Below, piece after piece: positions 1 to 62,205 of a stretch of 64,000 nucleotides of DNA. The stretch comes from Lacinutrix sp. C3R15 (GTDB taxonomy: Bacteria; Bacteroidota; Bacteroidia; Flavobacteriales; Flavobacteriaceae): contig NZ_JAHKPZ010000030.1 of assembly GCF_018860825.1 (NCBI RefSeq), positions 163,695 through 227,694 on the forward strand, read 5' to 3'. Positions within the stretch are counted from its first letter, which is position 1, and every line of letters starts with the position of its first letter. Under the pieces are notes generated by a model. The model searched no databases and was not told the origin of the DNA. It worked only from the letters and a program-made list of their open reading frames with translations. Made by a program: the position numbers and the translations under genes.

Positions 1-1731
1 AGATAGCTCTAAGTTTTTTTCTAGTTTATTACCATTATCATAAATAGTATAGGTACCATCACCATTATCTGTTACTGTGCCTGAATTTGATACTAAAGCT
101 GCACCTGGTCCTCCACTATACGAGACAATTAATTGTTCTAATCCTCCTTTACATTCACAATCTCCAGGAACTTCAACAGAAGAACAACCTTCAACTAAAT
201 CGGAACTATTACCTTCTGTATCTGTATAGTGAACTACTTGCATTCCACCAGAAAAAGTAACACCTAGAATATTTTGAGAACAAGAAGTATGAATTTCTGC
301 AGTTGTTGTTCCGTTAGATATATCTAAGTTGCTATCTAATTTTTCTCCATTATCGGTAATGGTATACGTCCCATCTCCATTATCTGTAATTATTCCAGAA
401 CTTGATGTTAAAATAGCTCCTGGTCCTCCACTGTAAGCAATGGTTATTTCTGTTAAACCACCTTTACATTCACATTCTTCCACATAAGGACATAAGGCTC
501 CTCCATTTCTACTAGCTCCTGAAATTATTTCGAAATCTCCAATTTCTAATCCAGGACCAACAGGTTGTGAACAACTAACATGTAAATCATTTACTTCTAC
601 TTCATTAATAAAGAAATAAATAGTATTAGTCATTCTATTTTCATCTCCATTACCTACAAATGTAAATTGATCAGTAGCAGAATGCACCCCTTGGTACAAT
701 ACTTCATCATCATTATTTAGCACCACAATGGTAGCATTTGACATACCATTGTATTGCATGGTTAATTCTACCAGTCCACCATCACATTCGTCGCAAGCGC
801 CTTCTGGAGGTGTAACAGGGTCACATGGTAAAGTCACTAAATCTTGTGTCCAGGTAACATAACCTTCGCCTTTAATTTCTTTTGCCACAAAAATACCATT
901 CATATTGGTTACCTCACCTCTTTCTCCTTTTACCTCAATTTTTTTATCTCTAACATAGATACGAGCGGTTAGGTTTGTACCCTCTTTAATTTTAACCTTA
1001 TCATCTGCATAGATTGTAACATTTCTATGTCTTGGATTAAAAGTATTATTTTCACCTAACTCCATTCCTTTTTGCAAATACACATTACCACATTTATTAA
1101 TAAAAATAATTGTTGCATTTTCTTCTGTTTTAATTTCTTCAATAAAAACATCAGGGCTTGTAAAAGATAAAGTACCCCCTTCTTTCACTTCAATTTTACC
1201 ATAAACATCTCCTGGCAACACAAGGTCTTCTCCTTCTTCAACTACAACATCTACGCTATCATCATTTGTTGTATTGTTAGTTATAAAAGGAGGTAAGGTT
1301 ATTACTGCTTGGGCAAAGATTGAAGCTCCTACAGAGCTATCTGCATCTACCTCAATTTCGGGAGATTTGACAAAACTATACACAATACTTTCGTCTTTTA
1401 TTTTGGCCCTTCCATTAGATTGAGTAACACCTAAAGCTCCAGAAACTACTAAGTTATTGTCTTTAAGTTCTATTTTTTCTTTTGCAATCAATACAAATGA
1501 TGCAATGTCATCTGCCGAACTAAATACATTATTGGCATTATCAGGACACTCGATACTTGGTGAATTTAACGAGCTTTGCTTTGTACTGGGTTTATTGTTT
1601 TTAGATTTATCTCCTGTTGGAGTGGTTTTAATAACTAAATCTAAATTAAGGTTCTTCTTTTTAAGGGTGGTTAAACCATTAGAAAAGACATTAGCTGTTA
1701 AGAAAAAAAATAGGATTGAAAATATTTTCAT
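1..1731 (-). CDS. Secreted Cys-rich repeat protein, N-terminal part (runs off left edge)
   Basis: The reading frame is open from the left edge to an ATG at 1731, about 577 residues, and its stop lies outside the window. The start at 1731 gives a clean Sec signal peptide (MKIFSILFFFLTANVFS); an upstream in-frame ATG at 1806 would add 25 residues in front of it and is less likely. After a low-complexity Ser/Lys/Asn stretch comes a beta-rich region, then at least three repeats beginning with a CxxCxGG-type motif (around 803, 476 and 155), two of them with a shared GGPGA and DNGDGTYTI core. This arrangement is typical of secreted flavobacterial surface proteins of unknown function. I cannot name a function; the C-terminus, which might show a type IX signal, is not visible. 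Confidence 0.75.
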   Translation of the reverse strand, partial: MKIFSILFFFLTANVFSNGLTTLKKKNLNLDLVIKTTPTGDKSKNNKPSTKQSSLNSPSIECPDNANNVFSSADDIASFVLIAKEKIELKDNNLVVSGALGVTQSNGRAKIKDESIVYSFVKSPEIEVDADSSVGASIFAQAVITLPPFITNNTTNDDSVDVVVEEGEDLVLPGDVYGKIEVKEGGTLSFTSPDVFIEEIKTEENATIIFINKCGNVYLQKGMELGENNTFNPRHRNVTIYADDKVKIKEGTNLTARIYVRDKKIEVKGERGEVTNMNGIFVAKEIKGEGYVTWTQDLVTLPCDPVTPPEGACDECDGGLVELTMQYNGMSNATIVVLNNDDEVLYQGVHSATDQFTFVGNGDENRMTNTIYFFINEVEVNDLHVSCSQPVGPGLEIGDFEIISGASRNGGALCPYVEECECKGGLTEITIAYSGGPGAILTSSSGIITDNGDGTYTITDNGEKLDSNLDISNGTTTAEIHTSCSQNILGVTFSGGMQVVHYTDTEGNSSDLVEGCSSVEVPGDCECKGGLEQLIVSYSGGPGAALVSNSGTVTDNGDGTYTIYDNGNKLEKNLELS

Positions 1732-1806
1732 CCTATTTAATCCTTTGTTTACTATAGACACATACTTGCCTATACTTGAAAAAAAATTCGAATTGATTGG
1801 TTTCAT

Positions 1807-27286: not shown

Positions 27287-28435
27287 TTAATTTTTCCAGT
27301 CAATGGTTGCTTTCTTATTTTCTAAATCGACCCAAATACTTGCATGCTCATAATTTCTGGTTAAAATCCAATCCTTAACTTGCATCTCGTCTAAAGGTTT
27401 TCCTAAAGGTCTATCCAACTCTGGATACCATAAAAGCGACCCCATACTTAATCGATATCCCCAATTGTAAATTAGATACGAATGTTTTTGTGCACCAGCT
27501 AAAAAAGAAGCCAAAGCAAAAGTTATATGTTCTTTAGAAATTTCCTCCTTTTCTTTTTCCGATTTAGCCATAAACTTTTTGTTTACCCATGCATTTTCTG
27601 GCCAAGTCTTAAATACTACAATCTTACCAGACTTACCTGCCTGTTCCATTTCTTGAATATCTGCTAGCATACTTTCTTTCGTTTTGCTATTAAAATATCC
27701 AAAATGCTCAATCATGATGGCATCTGTATTTTCAGGAAAATTGTTTCCTACATTTCTAATTGGTGTAGAACGAATACCGTTATAAACGATTAATTTATCG
27801 TCACCAATTTTATCTCTAGTTTCTTTAATTAAATCTTTTAATCCTTGCTGAATGGCATCAAACTTTTCGGTTCCCCATAATCTTTTATTTCCGGGATTGG
27901 TTACCTGTACTAATGCATCAAAGAAAACACCATCGATATTTTCATTCTTTAGATTTTCTAAAGCAATATTAGACCACCAATCTCTAAGCTCTGGGTTCGA
28001 TAAATCATAGCGTTTTAGTTTACCATCTTTTAAATCTAATTCTCCATTTTTTGTTTTAAGCCACCAATGGGATTTTGTTTGATAATCTTCATGCGCTTTA
28101 TACATACTATAATCTAAAAAAGCATTCCAATAAAAAACCACTTTCATGTCTGGATTTAAATCTTTTAACAGTTTAGCATCTGCAGCAATAGCATCTTCTG
28201 AATATTTATATTTTGGAAAACCATGTGCTTTTTCTAAAACCGTAAAGTTGGAATGCGAAGCAACAAATTTGGCTTCCTTTTTGGTTAAAAGGCCTCCTTT
28301 TTTTCCGAAGTGAAAAGCTACAGGAACTTTATCCCAACTAAATTCTGGAAAATGTGCATCACTTTGAGAAAATGCCGTTTGACTTAAAAGCAAACCGACT
28401 AAAAATAAAGAGGTATGTAGAAAAGGGAACTTCAT
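27287..28435 (-). CDS. Putative secreted glycosidase (GHL15-like TIM barrel), copy A
   Basis: 382 residues with a Sec signal peptide (1-23, ending TAFSQ). The sequence looks like an alpha/beta barrel: MKVVFYWNAFLDY, a strand GVFFDALVQV with D173, KLIVYNGIR, and AIMIEHFGYF with E243. The latter two acidic residues sit where retaining or inverting barrel glycosidases carry theirs. The pattern resembles the hypothetical GHL15 group of putative glycosidases; no reaction is proven. It is 11 bp downstream of the GH29 gene. A paralogue lies at 35291-36475. Confidence 0.65.
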   Translation of the reverse strand: MKFPFLHTSLFLVGLLLSQTAFSQSDAHFPEFSWDKVPVAFHFGKKGGLLTKKEAKFVASHSNFTVLEKAHGFPKYKYSEDAIAADAKLLKDLNPDMKVVFYWNAFLDYSMYKAHEDYQTKSHWWLKTKNGELDLKDGKLKRYDLSNPELRDWWSNIALENLKNENIDGVFFDALVQVTNPGNKRLWGTEKFDAIQQGLKDLIKETRDKIGDDKLIVYNGIRSTPIRNVGNNFPENTDAIMIEHFGYFNSKTKESMLADIQEMEQAGKSGKIVVFKTWPENAWVNKKFMAKSEKEKEEISKEHITFALASFLAGAQKHSYLIYNWGYRLSMGSLLWYPELDRPLGKPLDEMQVKDWILTRNYEHASIWVDLENKKATIDWKN

Positions 28436-35290: not shown

Positions 35291-36475
35291 ATGCATTTTA
35301 AACCTTCCTTTTTACTCGTTTTATTAGCAGTCTCTTTAAGTGCATGTGTCACGCAAAAGGTAGAAACTGCTGCAGTAAAACATAAATTACCAGAATTTTC
35401 TTGGGATAAAATGCCGTTGTATATGCATTTGCGTAAATCTACCGCGTTTACAAAGAAAGAGGTAGAATACATTGCCAAGCACCCTTTAATAACCTTCGAA
35501 AAAACAACAGGAAGCAAAACCTATGGATCCACAGAAAAAGGAACTATAAAAGCTGCCGAAGCAGTAAAAAAAATTAACCCGAATGCCACCATCTTATACT
35601 ATAAAAATGTGGTTATCAATTGGGGAGGTTATGCTGAAGATGAAGCATTTTTAGATAAACATCCAGAGGCTTTATTAGTGGACGCTAAAGGAAACAAAGC
35701 AGTAATGCCGAATCGCAAAACAGGATTCTTTGATATTTCACAAGATTACGTTCGAAAGTATTGGTTAAATCACGTAAAAGAAGTTACCGAAAGCCCTGTT
35801 ATTGATGGTGTATTTTTAGATGCTAACATTAAAGTTTTAGTGCCTACTTTCTTTAACAGTCGTGTTGGAAAAGAAAAACAAGAAGCTATTAAAACGGGCT
35901 ACTTATCGATGATGGCAGATTTAGAATCGCAAATAGGAACCGATAACTTGCTCCTTGCAAATATCCTTCGTGTGCGTCCAGAGTTTGAAGATTCGGGTAG
36001 AGAATACTTGAAATTTTTTGATGGTTCTTACCTGGAAGGTTTTGAACGCGGAAATTCTGGCATGACTTATGAAGACTACCTAGTAAAAGGCATTGAGGCT
36101 GTTCAAAAATCAGCAAGAGAAGGCAACGTAATAGCTATGTCTCTAGGCATTGGAAAAGGACTAAAAAACGCAGAAGAAGGCATCGATGACGCTAGAAAAA
36201 AAATAAACATAAATGAAGATTTCACAGAACGCTTAGATTATCTCTTAGCTATTTTTTTAGTTTGTGCTGAAAAATACAGCTACGTATACCCACATGATGG
36301 TTATGCTGTTGGAAGTTCTGCCGTTTGGCTTAAAACGTTTCCTCAGTATGAGAAAAAACTGGGAGCACCAAAAGGTTATGCCAAACGTGAAGGATACATT
36401 TATACAAGATCTTTTGAACATCTAGATGTTTGGCTAGATATAGAAAACCAAACCGCCCAATTACATTGGAAATAA
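35291..36475 (+). CDS. Putative glycosidase lipoprotein (GHL15-like), copy B
   Basis: 394 residues. A lipoprotein signal ends LSAC (Cys 19), unlike copy A, which has a Sec signal peptide. It shares the FSWDKMP start, the FDISQDYVRKYW strand, the IDGVFLDANIKV strand with D177, and YLEGFERG with E249, corresponding to D173 and E243 in copy A. The overall fold is a barrel glycosidase. Gap to the GH29 gene 45 bp and to the following sulfatase 33 bp. Reaction unknown. Confidence 0.65.
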   Translation: MHFKPSFLLVLLAVSLSACVTQKVETAAVKHKLPEFSWDKMPLYMHLRKSTAFTKKEVEYIAKHPLITFEKTTGSKTYGSTEKGTIKAAEAVKKINPNATILYYKNVVINWGGYAEDEAFLDKHPEALLVDAKGNKAVMPNRKTGFFDISQDYVRKYWLNHVKEVTESPVIDGVFLDANIKVLVPTFFNSRVGKEKQEAIKTGYLSMMADLESQIGTDNLLLANILRVRPEFEDSGREYLKFFDGSYLEGFERGNSGMTYEDYLVKGIEAVQKSAREGNVIAMSLGIGKGLKNAEEGIDDARKKININEDFTERLDYLLAIFLVCAEKYSYVYPHDGYAVGSSAVWLKTFPQYEKKLGAPKGYAKREGYIYTRSFEHLDVWLDIENQTAQLHWK

Positions 36476-41874: not shown

Positions 41875-42066
41875 AAAGGAAAACACAATAATTTCGAATT
41901 CGTATCAAGCCACACAAATTATTTAAATAAGACATTTCTTAGGTTGAATTAGATATAACATTATCCTAAAAGAAAATGCAAATTAGTAACCTTAAAAACT
42001 ATTATTTCGTAATAAAACGATTTGTATTTATTAAGAATTTATCCATTACACTACTATCTCATAACT

Positions 42067-43251
42067 ATGACTGATACCATCAAAAAAGAAAACAGTTTTA
42101 TAAAAGACCTCAACTTTCTAAAAAAACATACAGATATTATTGTTTTGCAAGAAGGAAATAGTGCATTGGCTATAGCACCACAATATCAAGGTCGAGTCAT
42201 GACGAGTACAACAAATTTAGCTGGAGGTTCAGGTTTTGGTTGGATTAATAAAAAAGTAATTGAAACAGGTTTCTTAACGGAAGAAGAACGTAAAGGACGC
42301 TTAGAAAATCAAATTTATGTTTTTGGAGGTGAGGAGCGTTTTTGGTTAGGCCCAGAAGGTGGTCAGTTTTCTCTCTTTTTTAAAGAAGGAGATAATTTTG
42401 ATTTTTCTAATTGGAAAACTCCTGCAGTTATAGATACAGATGCTTTTACATTAATTTCTAAAACAGAAAACGCAGCTAAGTTTGAACATAGTTGTGAGCT
42501 GATCAATAAGAGTGGTACTGTTTTTAAAATGGGTATTGGTCGTTCTGTAACTATTTTAAATAAAAACGCAATAAAAAAAATCATTAAAAAAGATATTTCT
42601 ACAAAAATTGAATTTGTAGGTTACGAAACGAATAATCAAATCACAAATATTGGAGAGGCTGCATGGATTCCAGAAACTGGATTACCATCTATCTGGATGC
42701 TAGGAATGTACAACCCTTCACCAAAAACAACTGTAGTTATTCCTTTTAAAGAAGGAAGTGAAATTGAATTGGGAGAAAAGGTAAATGACGCATATTTTGG
42801 TAAGGTACCTAAGGACTATTTAGAAGTAAAAGAAGAAGTTTTGTTTTTTAAGGGAGATGGCACAAAACGCAGTAAGATTGGCATAAACTCAAAACGCACA
42901 AAAGGTATTGCAGGAAGCTATGATGCCCTAGGAAAAGTTTTGACTTTGGTAACTTATAATACACAAGAAGCACCTCATGGATATGTAAATTCAGCATGGG
43001 AGCACCAAGAAAAACCTTATGCGGGAGATGTCATAAATGCCTATAACGATGGTTCTCCAGAAGCAGGAGTACCACCAATGGGACCCTTTTATGAGTTAGA
43101 GACCTCATCACCAGCCGCAGCCCTAAATCCAAAGGAAACTATGGTTCATATTCAAACCACCATTCATTTACAAGGAAATGAAAATGAATTAAATGAAATT
43201 GCAATTGAAAATTTAGGTGTTGGTTTAGAAGAAATTATAAAGGCTCTATAA
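42067..43251 (+). CDS. DUF6786-like protein, apparently not exported
   Basis: 394 residues from the ATG at 42067; a longer TTG-initiated frame at 42022 would not give a signal peptide either. The sequence (LNFLKKHTDIIVLQEG, APQYQGRVMTSTT, GFGWIN, EERFWLGPEGGQFSLFF, ENLGVGLEEI) matches a family seen beside glycoside hydrolases in Bacteroidota and has the feel of an aldose-epimerase-like beta fold. Related proteins that I recall usually carry a lipoprotein signal; none is seen here. Reaction unknown. A 192-bp gap precedes it, so it may have its own promoter. Confidence 0.65.
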   Translation: MTDTIKKENSFIKDLNFLKKHTDIIVLQEGNSALAIAPQYQGRVMTSTTNLAGGSGFGWINKKVIETGFLTEEERKGRLENQIYVFGGEERFWLGPEGGQFSLFFKEGDNFDFSNWKTPAVIDTDAFTLISKTENAAKFEHSCELINKSGTVFKMGIGRSVTILNKNAIKKIIKKDISTKIEFVGYETNNQITNIGEAAWIPETGLPSIWMLGMYNPSPKTTVVIPFKEGSEIELGEKVNDAYFGKVPKDYLEVKEEVLFFKGDGTKRSKIGINSKRTKGIAGSYDALGKVLTLVTYNTQEAPHGYVNSAWEHQEKPYAGDVINAYNDGSPEAGVPPMGPFYELETSSPAAALNPKETMVHIQTTIHLQGNENELNEIAIENLGVGLEEIIKAL

Positions 43252-50477: not shown

Positions 50478-52850
50478 ATGAAAAAAACAACGGTATCGTA
50501 TTTATTATTTATATTTTGCTTTTCGCAGGTAATCAAAGCACAAAATGTCGATTTTAAAGTAGATTACGAATCTTTTTTATCGAAACACGATATGCTTTGG
50601 GATATTGTTCCAGACAAATGGCAAACCGCGCCTTATTCAGGAAATGGTAATGTGGGGTTTTTATTATATCAAGGTACCGAAGAAAAAGACAATGTAATCT
50701 CCCTTCATATAGGAAGACACGATTATTACGATCATAGAGAAGCCGAGACAAAGGCGGATGAAATGCTTTGGATTAAGCGAAGCCGTTTACCATTAGGTCA
50801 TTTTAAACTGAAATCTAAAGGTAAGATTACTGGTGTGGATATGCGTTTAGATTTATGGAATGCTGAATTAACAGGTACCATAAAAACGTCTAAAGGAAGT
50901 TATACCATTAAAGGCTTTACCCATAGCACCACTGATATTATTTATTTTAAAACTGAGGCAAAAGATGAAAACATAGAGATTACTTGGCATGCCGAAGATC
51001 CTATCCCTCCTGTTTATGAAGTTTTAAAAAGTGGTGGTGGTCCAAAAGGTGGTACTTGGGATAAAATGAGGGCTGTTACTTTAGAAATGGCGCCTAAACC
51101 GACGTTTAGTGAGAAAGATGGTTATAATTTTTGTTACCAACCATTATTCGATAACAGAGGAGAAACTACTACAGGATATAAAATAACAGGCAATCCTTCC
51201 GGAAAACAACAATTAATAGCGAGTGTGCATCATTGTTTTCCAGATCATAACTCTCTAGAAATTGTTAGTGAAAATTTAAAAACTGCGGAAGCACTTTTAA
51301 AAGAAAACAACTTTATATCTACCCATAAAAAATGGTGGCATGACTATTATCCATTAAGTTTCTTAACCATTAATGATGCCGAAAAAGAGTCCTTCTATTG
51401 GATTCAAATGTATAAACTAGGCGCTGCTTCTAGAGGAAACGGCCCCATTTTAGATTTAATGGGACCTTGGTACAACAGAACGTTTTGGCCAATGGTTTGG
51501 GGCGATTTAAATGTGCAACTCATCTATTGGACGCATTTAACAGCCAATAGAATGTCTATTGGAGAATCGCTACCAAACAACATGGACAAATATGCTAAAA
51601 ACCTAGAAAACAATGTACCTGCAAGTTGGAAAAATAGTGCTGCCGTTGCTGCTTTAATGCCGCAAGACCTCATCGCTTTCAACGGAGCAAAAGTGCCAGA
51701 TATGCTAGCATGGATGTTAAACGATTATTGGTTGCATTGCCAATTTGCAGGCGATGATATTCGTATGCGAGACAAACTATTTCCTATCTTGAAAAAAACG
51801 GTAAATAGTTATTTAAATTATATAGAAGACAATCCTGTAGAAGCCGAAGATGGCAAAATTCATATTAAATACAGTTGGTCACCAGAATACAAACCAGGTC
51901 GTGGGCAAGATATTAATTTTACGTTGGCCTTAATTCGTTGGAGCTGTCAAACCCTAATCGATATTGATGAAAAGCATCAAATAAACGACCCGCTTAAAAA
52001 AGAATGGCAACATTTATTAGATAATTTAGTGGATTTTCAAATCGATGAAAATGGTCTTATGGTTGGAAAAGACAGACCTTTTGCAAATCCGCATAGACAT
52101 TATTCCCATTTACTAGCTTTTTATCCTTTAATGGTAATTACACCAGAAAACGAGGAAGATAAAAAATTGTTACGTACATCTTTGGATCATTGGTTAGATG
52201 TTACTTTTAATAGCGGAAAGAAAATTAAAGCCATGCCAGTTACAGGTTATACAGCAACTGGAGCTTCTTCTATGTATGCCAATTTAGGCGATGCTGAAAA
52301 AGCGTATTATTATTTAGATTTTCTAATTAAGCATAAAAACATTTCATCTACTACGATGTATTCCGAAGGAAAAATTAATCCGGTTATTGAAAGTCCGCTG
52401 TCTTTTGCCACAAGTTTACACGATATGATGTTGCAAAGTTGGGGCGGAAAAATACGCGTATTTCCTGCAAGTCCGAAAAAATGGAAAGATGTTGCGTTTC
52501 ATGATTTAAGAACACAAGGTGCCTTTTTAGTCAGTGCTAAAAAAGTAGAAGGAGTTACCGAATTTGTATCCATAAAAAGTTTAAAAGGAAATGCATGTGT
52601 CGTTCATGTAGATTTTGAAAATCCGCAATTTTATATCAACGGAAAATCAATCGCTATAAATAAAGCAGCAGATGATTCTTATAAAATCAATTTAAAGAAA
52701 GATGAAACCGTTATCATTACTTCCAAAGAAATAAATAAAACAGATTTAAGTATTCAAGAATTACCAAAATCGGAAGCAGAGCAAAATCTATTCGGTTATG
52801 GTGAAAAAACAAAACGACTACCAGGTCATGACTATTACAGTTCTTATTAA
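50478..52850 (+). CDS. GH95-like six-hairpin glycosidase
   Basis: 790 residues with a signal peptide (1-21). An N-terminal beta-sandwich (about 30-270) is followed by an (alpha/alpha)6 barrel (about 285-660) and a C-terminal beta domain (LQSWGGKIRVFPASPKKWKDVAFHDLRTQGAFLVSAKK), the GH95 layout. The active-site strand reads MVWGDLNVQLIYW; GH95 fucosidases have N-I-N in this place, here D343-L-N345. Members act on alpha-linked L-fucose or L-galactose, so a related but different sugar is possible. Gap to the next sulfatase is 10 bp. Confidence 0.78.
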   Translation: MKKTTVSYLLFIFCFSQVIKAQNVDFKVDYESFLSKHDMLWDIVPDKWQTAPYSGNGNVGFLLYQGTEEKDNVISLHIGRHDYYDHREAETKADEMLWIKRSRLPLGHFKLKSKGKITGVDMRLDLWNAELTGTIKTSKGSYTIKGFTHSTTDIIYFKTEAKDENIEITWHAEDPIPPVYEVLKSGGGPKGGTWDKMRAVTLEMAPKPTFSEKDGYNFCYQPLFDNRGETTTGYKITGNPSGKQQLIASVHHCFPDHNSLEIVSENLKTAEALLKENNFISTHKKWWHDYYPLSFLTINDAEKESFYWIQMYKLGAASRGNGPILDLMGPWYNRTFWPMVWGDLNVQLIYWTHLTANRMSIGESLPNNMDKYAKNLENNVPASWKNSAAVAALMPQDLIAFNGAKVPDMLAWMLNDYWLHCQFAGDDIRMRDKLFPILKKTVNSYLNYIEDNPVEAEDGKIHIKYSWSPEYKPGRGQDINFTLALIRWSCQTLIDIDEKHQINDPLKKEWQHLLDNLVDFQIDENGLMVGKDRPFANPHRHYSHLLAFYPLMVITPENEEDKKLLRTSLDHWLDVTFNSGKKIKAMPVTGYTATGASSMYANLGDAEKAYYYLDFLIKHKNISSTTMYSEGKINPVIESPLSFATSLHDMMLQSWGGKIRVFPASPKKWKDVAFHDLRTQGAFLVSAKKVEGVTEFVSIKSLKGNACVVHVDFENPQFYINGKSIAINKAADDSYKINLKKDETVIITSKEINKTDLSIQELPKSEAEQNLFGYGEKTKRLPGHDYYSSY

Positions 52851-52860
52851 ATATAAACAC

Positions 52861-54384
52861 ATGAAAAAAACGATTCTATACAGCATCTTTATATGCGCTT
52901 CTTTTATATCCTGCAAAGCACAAGAACAACAAAAAAAACCGAATGTCATTTTTATTTTTTCGGATGATCAAAGGTTTCATTCTCTGAGCATGACAGGCGA
53001 CCCAATAGCGGAAACACCAAATATCGATGCGTTAGCAAAAGAAGGTGTCTTTTTTAACAACGCCTATATTACAAGTCCTATTTGCGGTCCAAGTAGAGCC
53101 AACATCTTTACGGCACAATGGGAACGAAAAAACAAAATTGGTTTTACCAATATTTCAAAACATGTGATTTCTGAAAAAACATACCAAGACAGTTGGCAAG
53201 CACAATTAAAGAATGCTGGATATTCCACTGCTTTTATTGGAAAACACCACACTAAAATTGGAGATAGAAAAGATACACCTTTAGTAGAAAACACCGATTT
53301 TAGTTATTTTGGAAATGGCCATTTAGGATTCTATCCAGAAAAAAAACACAAACAATTCAGCAATCTAAAAAACAAAACCCAAGTGGAAGGTTTATTAGAA
53401 GCTACAAAAGCCTACTTAACACAAGGTGATGATTATAAGTATTTTTACGAAAATGCAGACCCTTCCATTAAAAATCAACTTCAAAAAAGAGATCCTAACA
53501 AACCCTTTTCGGCATGGATTAATTTAAATCTTCCGCATGCCTCTAGTATTGGTGGTATGGGTTCCCGCGATACAGATCCTGAATATTACAAAACAAAGTA
53601 TGACGATGTAAAGCATAAAATGGAATTTCCGGATAACTATCCTCAAGATATTAGCTTACCTGAAAATGTGTATGCAACATCCGATTTAATGAAATATTAT
53701 GTTACTGCTAATAAAGGCAAATTATTAAATGAAAAGCTAAAAATGGATCGCGCTAATTATGCTATCGATTTGATGGTAGGTAATTTACGCACCTTTTTAA
53801 AGGAAATTGGAGAAGCGGATAATACCATTATTGTGTTTTGTTCTGACAATGGTTTATTTTTAGGCGAACACGGATTAGGAGGGAAAACCATTTTATATGA
53901 TGAATCGGTGCATGTTCCTATGATTGTGTATTCGCCATTTTTCAAGGATAAAACAAAAGGAAAAGTGATTGAGGAATTGGTAGTCGGACAAGATATTCCT
54001 GCAACGATACTAGAAATGTGTGGTGTACAAACGCCGCAATCCTATCAAGGAAAAAGTATGCTTCCATTAATAGATGGTAAAAATGAAAACTGGAGAGAAG
54101 ATATCTTTTTAGAAAACTTATTTACAGATCAAGGCTACCCAAGACAAGAAGGAGTACGCAGTAAACAGTTTAAATACATTCGTTCTTTTAGTAAAGCAAA
54201 CGACCGAAATAAATATGTTCCTAATCAATCTACGGAAACGAATGAAGCTCCAATTTACGAAGAATTATTCGATATCATAAACGACCCAAAAGAGCAGAAC
54301 AACTTAGTTGGAAACAAAGATTATATCGACGTTTTAAATGCATACAGAGAAAGATGTAAAACCCTTGTTTCCGAATTGAATTAA
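52861..54384 (+). CDS. S1 sulfatase, lipoprotein, CGPSR type
   Basis: 507 residues from the ATG at 52861; an upstream in-frame ATG at 52798 overlaps the preceding gene and would bury the lipoprotein signal (SFISC, Cys 18). Metal loop FSDDQRFHS, formylglycine site C75 in PICGPSRANIFTAQ and the loop FLGEHGLGGKTILYDESVHVPMIVYS are present. The GEHG/ESVHVP pattern is typical of the iduronate-sulfatase and choline-sulfatase-like branch, so it differs from the other sulfatases here. Confidence 0.93.
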   Translation: MKKTILYSIFICASFISCKAQEQQKKPNVIFIFSDDQRFHSLSMTGDPIAETPNIDALAKEGVFFNNAYITSPICGPSRANIFTAQWERKNKIGFTNISKHVISEKTYQDSWQAQLKNAGYSTAFIGKHHTKIGDRKDTPLVENTDFSYFGNGHLGFYPEKKHKQFSNLKNKTQVEGLLEATKAYLTQGDDYKYFYENADPSIKNQLQKRDPNKPFSAWINLNLPHASSIGGMGSRDTDPEYYKTKYDDVKHKMEFPDNYPQDISLPENVYATSDLMKYYVTANKGKLLNEKLKMDRANYAIDLMVGNLRTFLKEIGEADNTIIVFCSDNGLFLGEHGLGGKTILYDESVHVPMIVYSPFFKDKTKGKVIEELVVGQDIPATILEMCGVQTPQSYQGKSMLPLIDGKNENWREDIFLENLFTDQGYPRQEGVRSKQFKYIRSFSKANDRNKYVPNQSTETNEAPIYEELFDIINDPKEQNNLVGNKDYIDVLNAYRERCKTLVSELN

Positions 54385-55015: not shown

Positions 55016-56695
55016 ATGAAAACCGTCAAGTATATTTCCGTGATTTTATTATTGTTAAGTATATCCTGTTCAAATGATATTGAATTGGATCCTGTAGTGA
55101 TACCAGAAGGCTCCATTGAAAGCACATTTGGTATGAACGAATATGGTACAATAGATTTCAAAACCGTAGAAGGTATAGAAATAGGAGTAGATACTTCTGT
55201 AGAATTAGAAGCATTACACGGAGAACCTGAAGAAATAACTCAAGCAGTAGATGGTATCGTAAGATGGCAATATTTATCTGAGGGAATAGGGTTTGGCGTA
55301 AACACAACAACAGACATTATTGATAAAATATATTTATATTCTGACTTATACGAAGATTATACTACTAGTTATCCACGCGCACTGGAGGAAAATTTACAAT
55401 ATGCATTTGGCGTATTAAAAGCGAAACATCCTACCCTTAGAATTACAGATACTAATGGAAATAACTGGCCTTACGAAGCAGAAACGCTGATAGCAGCAAC
55501 TAATGGTGCAGTAAACGGAGTTTATTCTTATAATTTTGAAAACCTTGGAAGGTTCATCTTTATTTCTGATAGTATAGATAATATGGAAGGATTTGTAGTA
55601 CAAATTATCTTAGAATCTGTTGAAGGTACAGGTGGTGGAACTGGTAGTGATAACCCAGAAATATCATTTGATGACGCAGGAGAAGATAGTCAAACATTTA
55701 ATGTAGGACAGGAAGATGAAGATGATCTTAATCAGGATATTATTACCGTGGGAGGTACAGGTATACTTGTAGAAAACAATGGTTTTATAGGTGTTAGTAC
55801 TGAAGATGCTAGTGATGATGGTGCTACTGCAGTTTTTACTTTTGACGTAACTACAAATGCAACTACTGCATTTGATGCTACTTTAAATTTAGAGTTAGCA
55901 AAAAGAGCAAAAGGTAGCGTTACCGGAATAGTTTCTGTAACAGGTTATCCAGATACACCTTTTTCTTATGCAGCTACTTCAACAGAGAATGGTGGTAGTG
56001 CTCCAGCTATCGATTTTGAATTCCCATCAACGATTTCATTGGTTTCAGGCTCACCGCTTACTGTGACTATTACACTAGATGAGATGTTAACGGAAGGTAA
56101 TACAACAAATCCGATATTTAGATTATCAAAAGTAACTGTAGTGAAAGATGGTAATACACCTCAACCTACACAAAATACTTGGCTTGATATAGACAATTCC
56201 ATTTCTAATGTAACATTATCAACTACTTGTACGGACTGTTCTATAGCAACAGTAGCAAATCCTGATGCTGCAGATGCAGAAGCTACGAATGTAACAAAAT
56301 GGACTGTAGGTTCTACTTCTGGTAGTGGAAATAAAAGCCTTAGTTTTGATTTCAACCCAGGAGAGGGTGTTACACTTGCTGATTATGCTAATTTAACAGT
56401 AACCGTACGTATGTACTGGCCTAGCTTCAATGATATTACTAATTTTGATGCTAATAAACGTATTAGAATCTATTTAAGTGATGGAAATGCTGCACAACAA
56501 GTACAAGGTAATTTTGAGGAATCGAACGAAGCGAATTGGCATACTATGGTATTTGATTTTACAGGAACACCATCAGGTGCTGAACTAACATCAGATGTAA
56601 TTAGTGGAGAAATTAGATTAATAGGTAATAACTTTACAAATATTGATAATGGTCTTGAATTTTATATTGACACGATCACTTATGATATAAATTAA
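55016..56695 (+). CDS. Surface lipoprotein with beta-sandwich domains (possible glycan-binding protein)
   Basis: 559 residues. Lipoprotein signal ending LSISC (Cys 18) followed by SNDIE; the acidic residues after the Cys resemble flavobacterial surface export. There is an N-terminal alpha/beta part (about 35-205), an acidic linker (TGGGTGSDNPE, near 210), a middle beta domain (about 225-375) and a C-terminal beta sandwich (about 385-559) ending in GLEFYIDTITYDIN. It has no SusD features. The last domain shares its layout with the N-terminal module of the next gene, so binding of the polysaccharide at the cell surface is a reasonable guess. Confidence 0.6.
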   Translation: MKTVKYISVILLLLSISCSNDIELDPVVIPEGSIESTFGMNEYGTIDFKTVEGIEIGVDTSVELEALHGEPEEITQAVDGIVRWQYLSEGIGFGVNTTTDIIDKIYLYSDLYEDYTTSYPRALEENLQYAFGVLKAKHPTLRITDTNGNNWPYEAETLIAATNGAVNGVYSYNFENLGRFIFISDSIDNMEGFVVQIILESVEGTGGGTGSDNPEISFDDAGEDSQTFNVGQEDEDDLNQDIITVGGTGILVENNGFIGVSTEDASDDGATAVFTFDVTTNATTAFDATLNLELAKRAKGSVTGIVSVTGYPDTPFSYAATSTENGGSAPAIDFEFPSTISLVSGSPLTVTITLDEMLTEGNTTNPIFRLSKVTVVKDGNTPQPTQNTWLDIDNSISNVTLSTTCTDCSIATVANPDAADAEATNVTKWTVGSTSGSGNKSLSFDFNPGEGVTLADYANLTVTVRMYWPSFNDITNFDANKRIRIYLSDGNAAQQVQGNFEESNEANWHTMVFDFTGTPSGAELTSDVISGEIRLIGNNFTNIDNGLEFYIDTITYDIN

Positions 56696-57124: not shown

Positions 57125-59089
57125 ATGAATAAATTTCTACCAGCTTTCTTTTTTTCACTGTTTTTCGTTCAATTAACTAATGCCCAATTTTTATGGTACG
57201 AAAATGAAACAAATACCTTTAAAATTGAACAAGAAAGTACAAGTTCAGGCACATTTCTTAGAGATATCCCTAATCCAGATATTACCGGAATAAATACAAA
57301 TAATTCCGTTTCTAAATTTAATAGAGCAGCTGGTCAAGAGGCTTTTTTACAATTCGATGTATATAATGCTGTAACCGATTTCTCAGGATATTCCGTAACA
57401 TTTAAGGCTTATATCGATATTCCTACAGCTGCATTAACAGCAAATAACTCAAAAATAAGTGTACACTTTTCCAATGCAACTGTTAGTACAGAAAGTGCTA
57501 TAGAACGCAACTTTACCGTTGGGCAACAATGGGAAACGTTCACCTTTAATTTTAATGGTACTTCAATTCCTAACGCGGTTATCAATGCCAATGGCTATCA
57601 ACGTATTGCTTTAGGATTTGCTAATGGCACAGCAACAGTTCCTACAACCACCTATTATATAGATTCCATTAGTGGTTCAACAGATCAAGTAGTAGATGTC
57701 GCTTCACACCAAGCCTCATGGCTATCTGGTTCTTGGGGAATTACCTTTCCTGTTTATGGAGGTGAGCGTTTAGATACTGAAGTTGCAGGCGGTTATGATC
57801 TTCCTGATGGTGCTCAAGAAGTGGTAGATGAATTGCCTGCTGTAGGTCACGTGATTACAAACTTGTCTTATTTTGCCCATTCCCATTATTTCGCACTTAG
57901 ACAGAATAGCAATGTAGATGTCGCTACTGAAATTCATGAAGCATTAGTACCTAGCGTAGCCAATCAAAACATCCTTTTTGAGGTCATGCAAAAGTTTAAA
58001 GATGATGGCAAAAAAATTATTTTGTACATCTCTACCAATTATTTAGATAGAGCTATTGATGATGGCGCAGATATTGAAGCGGCTTGGATTAATTACTACA
58101 CGAACAATTTTGCTGGTGACGAATATGCAGCATACAAGGATTTAATTGAAGGTTTTGTACTAGAAGTTAAAGAGTATGCCGATGGTTATTGGTTAGATAC
58201 TACTGCACAGCTTCATAATGATGGAAATTTAGAGGATTTTGTTCAAATGATTAGAAATGCAGATCCAGGTGCTATCATATCTGCGCAACCCAATGGTGCC
58301 TACTTGCAAGATGAAAATGGCAATAATATTTTAGTAGATTCTGATGGATTGGATGACGAGGATGATACCAATTATAAAATAGTAAGTTTTGAAGGCGTAA
58401 ATACCTATCAAGATTTTACAAGTGGTCATGTCACACCTCTAGGACAAGGAGCGCCTCCTAATTCATGGGCTTATGAAGAATTCACCATACCTGCAATGGT
58501 TGCAAACCCTTGGTCTATGTATAATGGGAATACGGTATTAAAACACGCATGGTTTCCGGTAAGAGCAAGATGGCATGTTTCTTCACAACCATTAATCTTT
58601 GGCATAGAAGATGGATATAGATTTACTAAACGCTTGGTTCAAGCCAATGCTGGAGTGACATTTGCTACAACCATAGATGATGTAAACAATAAAGGGTTTA
58701 TGATGGCAGATGAAATGCTTATTATGAAAACAATTAACGATAGATTATTATCTAACCCTGTTCCTGCTTGTGTGCCTTACGTAAGACCTGAAGGCGCTTA
58801 TTTAGTAGGTGAAGAGCCTTTATCTGTAGATTCCTTTAACACATCTTCGGAGGTTAAGTTTTACCCAAATCCTGTAGCAGATAGGTTAACCATAAAAAGA
58901 ACATCTACCGCTATAAATCACATAACCGTAATAAACGTTTTAGGAACTAAAGTACTACATAAGTTATGGGATAATGGATCTACATCAACACAAGTAGATG
59001 TATCTTCTTTACCTTCCGGAATTTATTTTATAAAACTGTCGAATGGTAGTAAACATAGCATCACTCGAAAAATAATAGTCTCTAAATAA
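57125..59089 (+). CDS. Type IX-secreted multidomain enzyme, unassigned barrel glycosidase
   Basis: 654 residues: signal peptide (1-20), an N-terminal CBM-like beta sandwich (about 22-182, closing TYYIDSISG), a central alpha/beta region (about 195-560) and a type IX C-terminal sorting domain (about 575-654, VKFYPNPVADRLTI ... SGIYFIKL). The central region has barrel strands KKIILYIST and the strand EVKEYADGYWLDTTAQ with D358 where clan GH-R enzymes (GH29, GH107) carry their nucleophile. It is the only type IX cargo in the window and so a candidate endo-enzyme for the first cut outside the cell. The family is not recognised with certainty. Confidence 0.7.
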   Translation: MNKFLPAFFFSLFFVQLTNAQFLWYENETNTFKIEQESTSSGTFLRDIPNPDITGINTNNSVSKFNRAAGQEAFLQFDVYNAVTDFSGYSVTFKAYIDIPTAALTANNSKISVHFSNATVSTESAIERNFTVGQQWETFTFNFNGTSIPNAVINANGYQRIALGFANGTATVPTTTYYIDSISGSTDQVVDVASHQASWLSGSWGITFPVYGGERLDTEVAGGYDLPDGAQEVVDELPAVGHVITNLSYFAHSHYFALRQNSNVDVATEIHEALVPSVANQNILFEVMQKFKDDGKKIILYISTNYLDRAIDDGADIEAAWINYYTNNFAGDEYAAYKDLIEGFVLEVKEYADGYWLDTTAQLHNDGNLEDFVQMIRNADPGAIISAQPNGAYLQDENGNNILVDSDGLDDEDDTNYKIVSFEGVNTYQDFTSGHVTPLGQGAPPNSWAYEEFTIPAMVANPWSMYNGNTVLKHAWFPVRARWHVSSQPLIFGIEDGYRFTKRLVQANAGVTFATTIDDVNNKGFMMADEMLIMKTINDRLLSNPVPACVPYVRPEGAYLVGEEPLSVDSFNTSSEVKFYPNPVADRLTIKRTSTAINHITVINVLGTKVLHKLWDNGSTSTQVDVSSLPSGIYFIKLSNGSKHSITRKIIVSK

Positions 59090-59185: not shown

Positions 59186-60613
59186 ATGAATAATATTAGA
59201 ATTACATTAGCAATTACCGCCTTATTTGTATGTATATCCTCCTTTTCACAGGAAGCCAAAAAGCCAAATATTATTTTAATTATGGCCGATGATGTCAGTT
59301 GGAACTGTTTTGGAACTTACGGCGCAGAAGATTATGAAACACCTAATATTGATGCCTTAGCTTCTAAAGGCATAAAGTTTAATCATTGTTATTCTACACC
59401 AATTTGCACGCCTTCTAGGGTAAAAATAATGACTGGGCAATATAATTTCAGGAATTATACCCATTTTGGATACCTAAATCCTAAAGACAAAACATTTGGA
59501 AACTTAATGAAAGATGCTGGTTACAAAACAGCTATTGCCGGGAAATGGCAATTAAACGGATTGTACCATAATGCGGAAGGTAGTTTAGACCCAAATAGAC
59601 CACAAAAAGCTGGTTTTGACGAATCTTATTTATGGCAAGTAACATCACAAAAAAAAGGAATGAATGGCGGAGGAGAACGTTTTTGGAGTCCACCTTTAGA
59701 ACGCAATGGGAAAATGATTAGTGTAGAAGATAATAATGGCAAATATGGACCTGATATTATGTCTGATTTTGTCTGTGATTTTATTGAGAAGAATAAAAAC
59801 GAACCATTTTTTGTGTACTACCCAACGGTTTTGGTGCATAGTCCTTTTGTACCTACCCCAGAAACAATTGGTAACCGATCTAAGGGGCAAGAAGCAAACA
59901 GAGCTCCAAGAGATAGAGACTTAAAAAAAGCCAATTATGTGGCTATGGTAAATTATTTAGATAAAATAGTTGGTAAAATCGTAAAGAAAGTGGAAGATGA
60001 AGGGCTCCTTGAAAACACGATTATTTTATTTACATCTGATAATGGGACAGAATCTATAACCTCTAGTTGGAATGGACAAGATATTAAAGGTGCTAAAGGA
60101 AAAACAGTAGACATGGGAACACATGTGCCATTTATTGCATATTGGAAAGGACATACGCCAAAGGGCATGGAAAGTGAAGACTTAATAGACTTCACCGATT
60201 TCTATACCACCTTTGCTGAAGCTGCTTCATTAAAAATGACCGACAAAGACCCAATTGACGGACGTAGTTTTTTACCACAATTACAAGGCGAAGTAGGAAA
60301 ACCAAGAGATTGGGTATTTTGGCACTATCAACCTTACTGGGGAAAACCGGGCAAGTATAAAGGTGCTCAATTCGTCAGAAACCAAGAGTATAAACTGTAT
60401 AGTGATGGTGGAATGTATCATGTACCTAGTGATATTCATGAAAAGAAGAATCTGTTATTAGAAGCACATAATACTTCGGTTAAAAACACAAAAGAAAATC
60501 TTCAACAGGTTTTGGATCAAGCCCCTCCTGCTCCTTCTGTGGATGAAAATAGAGAATCAAAAGAAAGACCTGTATATCCTACTTGGAAGAATATGGTGAA
60601 CCCAAATGATTAA
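59186..60613 (+). CDS. S1 sulfatase
   Basis: 475 residues with a signal peptide (1-21). Metal loop MADDVSWNCFG, formylglycine site C74 in PICTPSRVKIMTGQYNFR and TSDNGTESI are intact; the KWQLNG segment has Gln where KWHLG is usual. The His of KWH is a substrate-pocket residue in many sulfatases, so its replacement may alter substrate choice. The gene is separated by about 100 bp from the T9SS enzyme. Confidence 0.92.
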   Translation: MNNIRITLAITALFVCISSFSQEAKKPNIILIMADDVSWNCFGTYGAEDYETPNIDALASKGIKFNHCYSTPICTPSRVKIMTGQYNFRNYTHFGYLNPKDKTFGNLMKDAGYKTAIAGKWQLNGLYHNAEGSLDPNRPQKAGFDESYLWQVTSQKKGMNGGGERFWSPPLERNGKMISVEDNNGKYGPDIMSDFVCDFIEKNKNEPFFVYYPTVLVHSPFVPTPETIGNRSKGQEANRAPRDRDLKKANYVAMVNYLDKIVGKIVKKVEDEGLLENTIILFTSDNGTESITSSWNGQDIKGAKGKTVDMGTHVPFIAYWKGHTPKGMESEDLIDFTDFYTTFAEAASLKMTDKDPIDGRSFLPQLQGEVGKPRDWVFWHYQPYWGKPGKYKGAQFVRNQEYKLYSDGGMYHVPSDIHEKKNLLLEAHNTSVKNTKENLQQVLDQAPPAPSVDENRESKERPVYPTWKNMVNPND

Positions 60614-60741: not shown

Positions 60742-62205
60742 ATGAGAAAGAATACCTTTTTATTACTTGTTACTACATTGCTGTTTTTTAATAGCTATAG
60801 TCAAACTAAACAAAAGCAAAACAGCAAAAAGCCCAATGTAGTAATCATTTTTATAGACGATGAAGGTTATGGTGATGTAGGAAGTTATGGCGCAACTGGC
60901 TTCCAAACACCTAATTTAGACCATGTGGCAAGTCAAGGAATGAGGTTTACAAATTATTATGCGGCTCAGCCTGTATGTAGTGCCTCACGTGCTGGTATTT
61001 TAACAGGTTCTTATCCCAATAGAATAGGTATTGCAGCGGCTTTAACGCCACTCCATAAAAAAGGAATTAATAGCAATGAACTAACAATTGCCGAAATGTT
61101 TAAAGAACAAGGATATAAAACGGCTTGTTTTGGTAAATGGCATTTAGGATGGCAAAAAGAATTTTTACCATTACAACATGGTTTTGATGAGTATGTAGGT
61201 TTACCATATTCAAATGATATGTGGCCTCGTGACAACACAACTGGAGAAAAAGTACCCACAACACATAAACGTTCCAGATTTCCAGAACTTCCTTTGATGG
61301 AAGGGAACGAAATTAAAAAACATATAACATCGTTAAAAGATCAAGACGAGTTAACAACACTTTACACAGATAAGGCTGTTGATTTTATCAATAAAAATGC
61401 AAAAGAGCCATTCTTTTTATATGTGCCACATTCTATGGGCCATGTTCCTTTGGGCGTCTCTAAAAAATTTAGAGGTAAGAGTGAGCAAGGATTGTATGGT
61501 GATGTTATGATGGAAATTGATTGGTCGGTAGGTGAGATTAGCAAAGCATTAGAAAAAAATAAAATTGCAGACAATACCATATTTATTTTTACCTCAGACA
61601 ATGGACCTTGGTTAAGTTATGGAAATCATGCGGGTTCTTCAGGAGGATTGAGAGAAGGTAAGTTAACGAGTTGGGAAGGAGGGCAACGTGTACCTTTTAT
61701 CATTCGTTGGCCAGGAAATGTACCCAAAGGAACAGTTTGTAATAAATTAGCCTGTGCTATAGATTTACTACCTACCCTTGCGGCGATTACAGACGGAAAA
61801 CTATCTGAAAATAAAATTGACGGAGTAGATATATCATCACTTTGGAGAGGAGATTTTGAGTCAACACCTCGAGAGACGATTCTTTATTACTATGGAAAAA
61901 ATAATTTAAACGCTGTTAGAAAAGGAAACTGGAAATTGGTTTTACCACATAAGTATAAATTTCAAAATACACTAGCAGGAAAAGATGGTGCTCCAGGAAG
62001 AAAAGATAGAATGAATATTGAAAAACCTGAGCTTTACAATATGTCTAGAGATCCAGGAGAGCGATACAATGTAATTGCTTCTCATCCAGAAAAAGTAAAA
62101 GAACTAATGGTTGTTGTAGAAAAGTACCGAAAAGAACTAGGAGATTTAAATGTAGGAATTGCAACAGGAAGTGAAAACAGAGAAATAGGTCAGTTAGAAA
62201 GATAA
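60742..62205 (+). CDS. S1 sulfatase, CSASR type
   Basis: 487 residues with a signal peptide (1-20). Metal loop FIDDEGYGDVGSYG, formylglycine site C79 in PVCSASRAGILTGSYPNR (Ala replaces the common Pro, still within the accepted CxP/AxR pattern), GKWHLGWQ and TSDNGPWLSYG are intact. It has the look of arylsulfatase A-like enzymes. It lies 128 bp after the preceding sulfatase. Confidence 0.93.
   Translation: MRKNTFLLLVTTLLFFNSYSQTKQKQNSKKPNVVIIFIDDEGYGDVGSYGATGFQTPNLDHVASQGMRFTNYYAAQPVCSASRAGILTGSYPNRIGIAAALTPLHKKGINSNELTIAEMFKEQGYKTACFGKWHLGWQKEFLPLQHGFDEYVGLPYSNDMWPRDNTTGEKVPTTHKRSRFPELPLMEGNEIKKHITSLKDQDELTTLYTDKAVDFINKNAKEPFFLYVPHSMGHVPLGVSKKFRGKSEQGLYGDVMMEIDWSVGEISKALEKNKIADNTIFIFTSDNGPWLSYGNHAGSSGGLREGKLTSWEGGQRVPFIIRWPGNVPKGTVCNKLACAIDLLPTLAAITDGKLSENKIDGVDISSLWRGDFESTPRETILYYYGKNNLNAVRKGNWKLVLPHKYKFQNTLAGKDGAPGRKDRMNIEKPELYNMSRDPGERYNVIASHPEKVKELMVVVEKYRKELGDLNVGIATGSENREIGQLER

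Follow-up and report, generated by a model that had tools for sequence, protein, structure and literature searches.

A GH107-family protein with an N-terminal carbohydrate-binding-type module and a type IX sorting tail in a fucan locus of Lacinutrix sp. C3R15

The gene at positions 57125-59089 on the plus strand of the window, by which we mean the whole 64,000-nucleotide stretch of Lacinutrix sp. C3R15 DNA that was analysed, encodes a member of the known family GH107 and not of a new family. With a probability of about 0.9 the protein is an endo-alpha-L-fucanase (fucoidanase) of the Mef2-like branch of that family, and, judged by its characterised relatives, it would very probably act on fucoidan by cutting in mid-chain. 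Fucoidan, a polysaccharide of seaweeds that is broken down slowly, matters for the storage of carbon in the sea, and there is a demand for well-defined fucanases as tools. The family, the fold, the catalytic residues, the sorting tail, the tree position and the locus were all computed in this analysis, and it is from these that we infer the activity, the linkage and the binding by the accessory module. The preliminary description of this DNA had proposed a new extracellular endo-fucanase; that functional guess is backed by the sequence comparisons, the tree and the predicted structure, while its claim of novelty is wrong, the GH107 family being known; the protein is a new member of it with a distinct arrangement of modules.

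A single open reading frame occupies exactly this interval, beginning with ATG and specifying 654 amino acids. The protein begins with what, judged by eye, is probably a signal peptide, MNKFLPAFFFSLFFVQLTNAQ (57125-57187, plus strand), and continues with an N-terminal beta-sandwich of approximately residues 21-186 (57185-57682, plus strand), a candidate carbohydrate-binding module (CBM) apparent in the AlphaFold2 (AF2) models and in a match to the structure 8QX6. This is followed by the GH107 catalytic D1 (beta/alpha)8 barrel of residues 197-564 (57713-58816, plus strand), recognised by both sequence and AF2 fold matches. The C-terminal part, residues 580-652 (58862-59080, plus strand), is a type IX secretion system (T9SS) sorting domain of type A, which matches PF18962 (E 3e-16) and TIGR04183 (E 1e-13) above the cut-offs. 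Both the CBM-like module and the type IX secretion previously ascribed to the protein are thus borne out.

The sorting tail is, at the same time, the only part recognised in this way, since the barrel has no match whatever in Pfam or NCBIfam, a circumstance which explains why the preliminary description left the family unassigned and which could be taken to favour its proposal of a new family in clan GH-R. However, the GH107 D1 catalytic domain was noted as absent from domain prediction programs (PMC9147238), so that a missing Pfam match is uninformative on the family. When residues 180-564 were compared with the PDB by phmmer, the GH107 enzymes P5AFcnA (6M8N) and Mef1 (8BPD) were matched at E 8e-102 and E 2e-95, respectively, and in the alignment the barrel is 52.4% identical to that of Mef2, 47.6% to that of P5AFcnA and 46.7% to that of Mef1. 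This whole-barrel identity of 46-52% to three characterised GH107 enzymes, together with the structural similarity to the family, rules out a new clan GH-R family, for which we are left with practically no probability at all.

The AF2 model, built from 45 sequences, has a mean pLDDT of 81.8, the blocks of the barrel lying mostly between 75 and 97, and it possesses the clan GH-R type of barrel that had been anticipated from the sequence. On alignment with VIA-align the nearest structures are those of GH107, with Z values of 52.1 (6M8N), 48.6 (8BPD) and 31.1 (6DLH, MfFcnA), and the TM-score between the predicted model and 6M8N, by target length, is 0.95. GH29 fucosidases come next, at Z 18-22, and this fold relationship is what might suggest an exo-acting GH29-type alpha-L-fucosidase. 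Yet the identity in the structural alignments is 46% to the two nearest GH107 structures as against approximately 10% to GH29, the protein has neither a GH29 Pfam match nor a GH29 PDB chain at E<=10, and the proteins of the locus that do carry the GH29 Pfam domain are encoded by other genes. The sequence and the large gap in Z hence rule out a GH29 exo-fucosidase, and we regard this alternative as very improbable. Comparison with GH168 and GH174, which the preliminary description had also suggested, was made by sequence against the solved chains 8YA6, 9JOC, 9JOM and 8JD7 (the last of which we take to be GH174), all of them in the database, and matched no chain at E<=10. MfFcnA, the founding GH107 enzyme, has the same fold and catalytic pair as the Lacinutrix protein at only 14% identity; sequence search with a Mef/P5A-branch profile failed to find it, and the two are linked by structure only.

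The assignment to GH107 extends to the catalytic residues. By alignment, Asp358 (58196-58198) is the nucleophile, equivalent to Mef1 Asp187 and Mef2 Asp182, and His435 (58427-58429) the acid/base, equivalent to Mef1 His270 and Mef2 His260; both are invariant in 45 aligned sequences, as are Tyr301 (58025-58027; Mef1 Tyr128) and Trp483 (58571-58573; Mef1 Trp318) of the -1 subsite and Pro478, which is aligned with Mef1 Pro313 (all codons on the plus strand). For Mef1, Asp187 is reported as nucleophile and His270 as acid/base, and the residues surrounding the -1 subsite are given as Tyr128, Asn215, Trp318 and Pro313 (PMC10619423). The YWLD strand with Asp358, which had been singled out for its resemblance to the nucleophile strand of clan GH-R, is indeed found at residues 355-358, where the aspartate ends a beta-strand of the barrel predicted by the AF2 model at 354-358. 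Likewise, the GH107 motifs DxxxxD, with the Asp nucleophile, and DxxxGH, with the His acid/base (PMC9147238), are present as D353-D358 and D430..G434-H435.

One position in the -1 subsite departs from this picture. The Asn conserved in the characterised GH107 members (Mef1 Asn215, Mef2 Asn207), a residue which is accessory and not family-defining, is seemingly replaced by Gln388 (58286-58288, plus strand), the register being uncertain because the column adjoins an indel. Of 45 rows, 31 have N in this column, 7 have Q and 5 have S, the Q and S being concentrated in the sub-clade of the Lacinutrix protein. A Gln at this point means that the substrate preference may differ from that of Mef2. The fourth -1 subsite residue, Ser303, matches Ser129 at the same variable position of Mef2.

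For a GH107 endo-fucanase the following course of events can be envisaged. The type IX system would export the enzyme, probably to the cell surface, where the N-terminal beta-sandwich would probably hold it on fucoidan, while the barrel would cut alpha-L-fucosyl bonds inside the chain in a retaining reaction, Asp358 serving as nucleophile and His435 as acid/base. Uptake of the released oligosaccharides would follow, and the sulfatases, the GH29 and GH95 enzymes and the fucose pathway, all of this locus, would trim them.

In a tree of 49 rows the protein falls together with Mef2 in a 23-row clade (support 100/99), and by both barrel identity and tree the nearest CHARACTERISED enzyme is Mef2, although the Mef2 branch is long (0.89). 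AU tests, for which the groups were picked after the tree had been seen, reject joining the clade of the Lacinutrix protein to that of P5AFcnA and Mef1 (p 0.005) and likewise joining Mef2 to the latter (p 0.011). The sequence used as Mef2 was identified indirectly: genome G414 has a gene whose product agrees with Mef1 in every letter of the stretch compared (L096), and it also encodes the Mef2 motifs EVLKDYADGYWLDTV and VASNGVSITGETSPKVGYN as printed in the papers (L094), and since the published motifs and Mef1 occur in the same genome we take the latter gene to be Mef2.

How far this position foretells the linkage is a separate matter. Mef2, from Muricauda eckloniae, is an endo-alpha(1,3)-fucoidanase specific for alpha-1,3 bonds (PMC9147238), P5AFcnA is reported to act on alpha-1,3 (PMC12786026) and Mef1 on alpha-1,4 (PMC10619423). 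Linkage preference in GH107 does not track phylogeny well, Mef1 being alpha-1,4 as against Mef2 and P5AFcnA (PMC10619423, PMC12786026), and caution against reading linkage from a tree has been expressed (PMC10619423). Since the clade-mate and closest characterised enzyme, Mef2, is alpha-1,3, this linkage is the better guess for the Lacinutrix enzyme and is, by such analogy, somewhat favoured. A GH107 enzyme cutting alpha-1,4 bonds as does Mef1, or acting on some other fucan pattern, for example one that differs in sulfation, acetylation or branching, appears a less probable, though real, alternative. It would accord with the Gln or Ser in the -1 Asn column of the sub-clade, with the alpha-1,4 activity of Mef1 in the wider group (an activity not shared by P5AFcnA) and with the presence in the genome of GH168 genes, belonging to a family with reported endo-1,3-fucanases. 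It is at odds with the alpha-1,3 activity of Mef2, with two features common to the Lacinutrix protein and Mef2, namely Ser303 and a shortened loop following the YIS strand, and with the fact that the grouping with Mef1 belongs not to this protein but to its paralogue.

Like the Lacinutrix protein, Mef2 has the same nucleophile and acid/base and, as reported, a T9SS tail. In Mef2 (1067 aa), however, the barrel comes first and is followed by long C-terminal Ig/F5-8/CBM6-like domains, whereas the Lacinutrix protein has one N-terminal module, the tail as its sole C-terminal extension, and Gln in place of the Asn. P5AFcnA and Mef1 have the same barrel and catalytic pair, but are single-domain enzymes with neither an accessory module nor a T9SS tail, and have a longer loop after the VILY strand.

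The paralogue is a second GH107 gene (L010:529-2454; G000:C4:245555-247405), situated approximately 24 kb downstream and beyond the window. It has the same architecture, with 46-48% identity over the aligned full length and 50% in the barrel, and in the tree it is this gene that groups with the P5AFcnA/Mef1 clade. Since one protein groups with Mef2 and the other with Mef1, both branches of GH107 occur in one organism, which by analogy may cut two fucan linkages. The pairing in one locus of a Mef2-type and a Mef1-type GH107 with two GH168 genes allows the linkage coverage of a single organism to be examined. Among the results listed by a literature search there was no paper on Lacinutrix with GH107.

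GH107 genes of this type are rare, occurring in two of seven genomes of the genus and, as strong cases, in eight of 397 genomes of the taxonomic family, and the barrel is 98% identical to that of the counterpart in Lacinutrix himadriensis. In Winogradskyella and Flavicella there are lipoprotein-anchored GH107 enzymes (L018:7878-9119; L019:7860-9086) with SSCSK- and FACSK-type starts, approximately 70% identical to the protein described here and thus having the same barrel on a different anchor. In two Muricauda-type genomes (G235, G414) the intact GH107 genes have beside them a broken GH107 fragment that is interrupted by several in-frame stops (L091/L099).

The most novel part of the protein is the N-terminal module, an unclassified module of sugar-binding type. 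Folded alone with AF2 from 18 sequences, it gives a confident beta-sandwich (pLDDT 88.6, pTM 0.86), which has no significant Pfam match. Its best structural match is 8QX6, entitled 'Novel laminarin-binding CBM X584' (Z 14.0 over 144 residues, 22% identity). In the VIA and Foldseek lists numerous CBM families score Z 10-13, but 8QX6 is also the sole PDB match of the module profile (E 8e-6), and because it matches by sequence too we take it alone as a relative, the sequence similarity being weak. The ligand would nevertheless probably differ from the laminarin of X584, since the branch to which the module belongs sits in fucan loci.

A profile search found four copies of the module in the genome, all within 27 kb of the locus, carried by the GH107 protein itself, by its paralogue, by a T9SS protein (L009:14762-16147, minus strand) and by the lipoprotein encoded immediately upstream at 55016-56695, which has a divergent copy towards its C-terminus (56171-56680). 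Strong copies occur in six of the 397 family genomes, namely in five of the eight with this GH107 type and in one of the 389 others, a co-occurrence for which the Fisher p of 4e-9 is inflated because the profile was made from GH107-attached copies and the related genomes are not independent. In genome G179 two T9SS proteins, encoded separately and nearby, carry the module, one of them together with an esterase domain, and in G388, which has the module but not this GH107 type, it is near an L-fucose isomerase and a gene matching the endo-1,3-fucanase 8JD7 with 1100 bits. These two neighbourhoods make a fucan-binding role plausible, and the balance tilts slightly towards the module being a CBM that binds the substrate of the enzyme. 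There is about an even chance that it founds an unclassified CBM family for sulfated fucans, distributed over GH107 enzymes, T9SS module proteins and a surface lipoprotein. It offers a specific candidate for a CBM that binds fucan and also a marker of fucan loci in other genomes. More generally, the CBM-like beta-sandwich recurs in fucan loci (including L112:8865-10223, minus strand, and L113), where its carriers are GH107 enzymes, an esterase, T9SS module proteins and a lipoprotein.

The surroundings are those of a fucosidase/sulfatase locus, as originally described. The window contains two GH29 genes, one GH95, many sulfatases, a sulfatase-modifying enzyme and a SusC-type receptor. Upstream of the GH107 gene, on the same plus strand, lie genes for a GH95-type protein (50478-52850) and a sulfatase (52798-54384) and, directly adjacent, the 559-aa lipoprotein (55016-56695), which has a lipoprotein-type signal (SISC) and is a candidate surface glycan-binding protein; downstream follow two sulfatases (59186-60613, directly adjacent, and 60742-62205, both plus strand). 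The order GH95-sulfatase-lipoprotein-GH107 is kept in Winogradskyella, Lacinutrix himadriensis and Algibacter, the lipoprotein lying directly upstream of GH107 also in Winogradskyella and Algibacter. Beyond the window the cluster continues with more sulfatases, the second GH107 and genes for L-fucose isomerase, FGGY kinase and class II aldolase.

The protein had been put forward for depolymerisation by elimination, as the only type IX cargo and the only obvious extracellular endo-enzyme of the locus. The elimination fails, because the locus contains two GH168 genes in addition to the second GH107. Of the two endo-fucanase candidates in the window, which are 28% identical to each other, one has a signal peptide, read by eye (27287-28435, minus strand), and is closest among solved structures to 9NHF and Fun168E (9JOM), and the other is a lipoprotein (SLSAC, by eye; 35291-36475, plus strand) closest to the endo-1,3-fucanase Fun168D (9JOC/9JOF). 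Both match PF14885 (GHL15) and were assigned to GH168 by the PDB codes in PMC11943901, which lists Fun168E and Fun168D among the GH168 endo-fucanases, a family including reported endo-1,3-fucanases. A third PF14885 gene is present elsewhere in the genome (C1:236699-237514).

The claim concerning type IX cargo holds in part. Of the 85 T9SS tails in the whole genome, the GH107 gene has the only one in the fucan cluster of the window, whereas four further cargoes, the second GH107 among them, lie within approximately 25 kb downstream, so that the claim is true of the fucosidase/sulfatase genes of the window and not of the whole cluster. An open reading frame truncated by the left edge of the window (1-1806, minus strand), outside these genes, is the N-terminal part of another T9SS cargo. 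In the continuation of the locus there is also a sulfatase with a T9SS tail (L009:8250-10823), the sulfatases of the window being without one. A DUF6786 protein (E 8e-158) is encoded at 42022-43251 within the fucosidase/sulfatase cluster.
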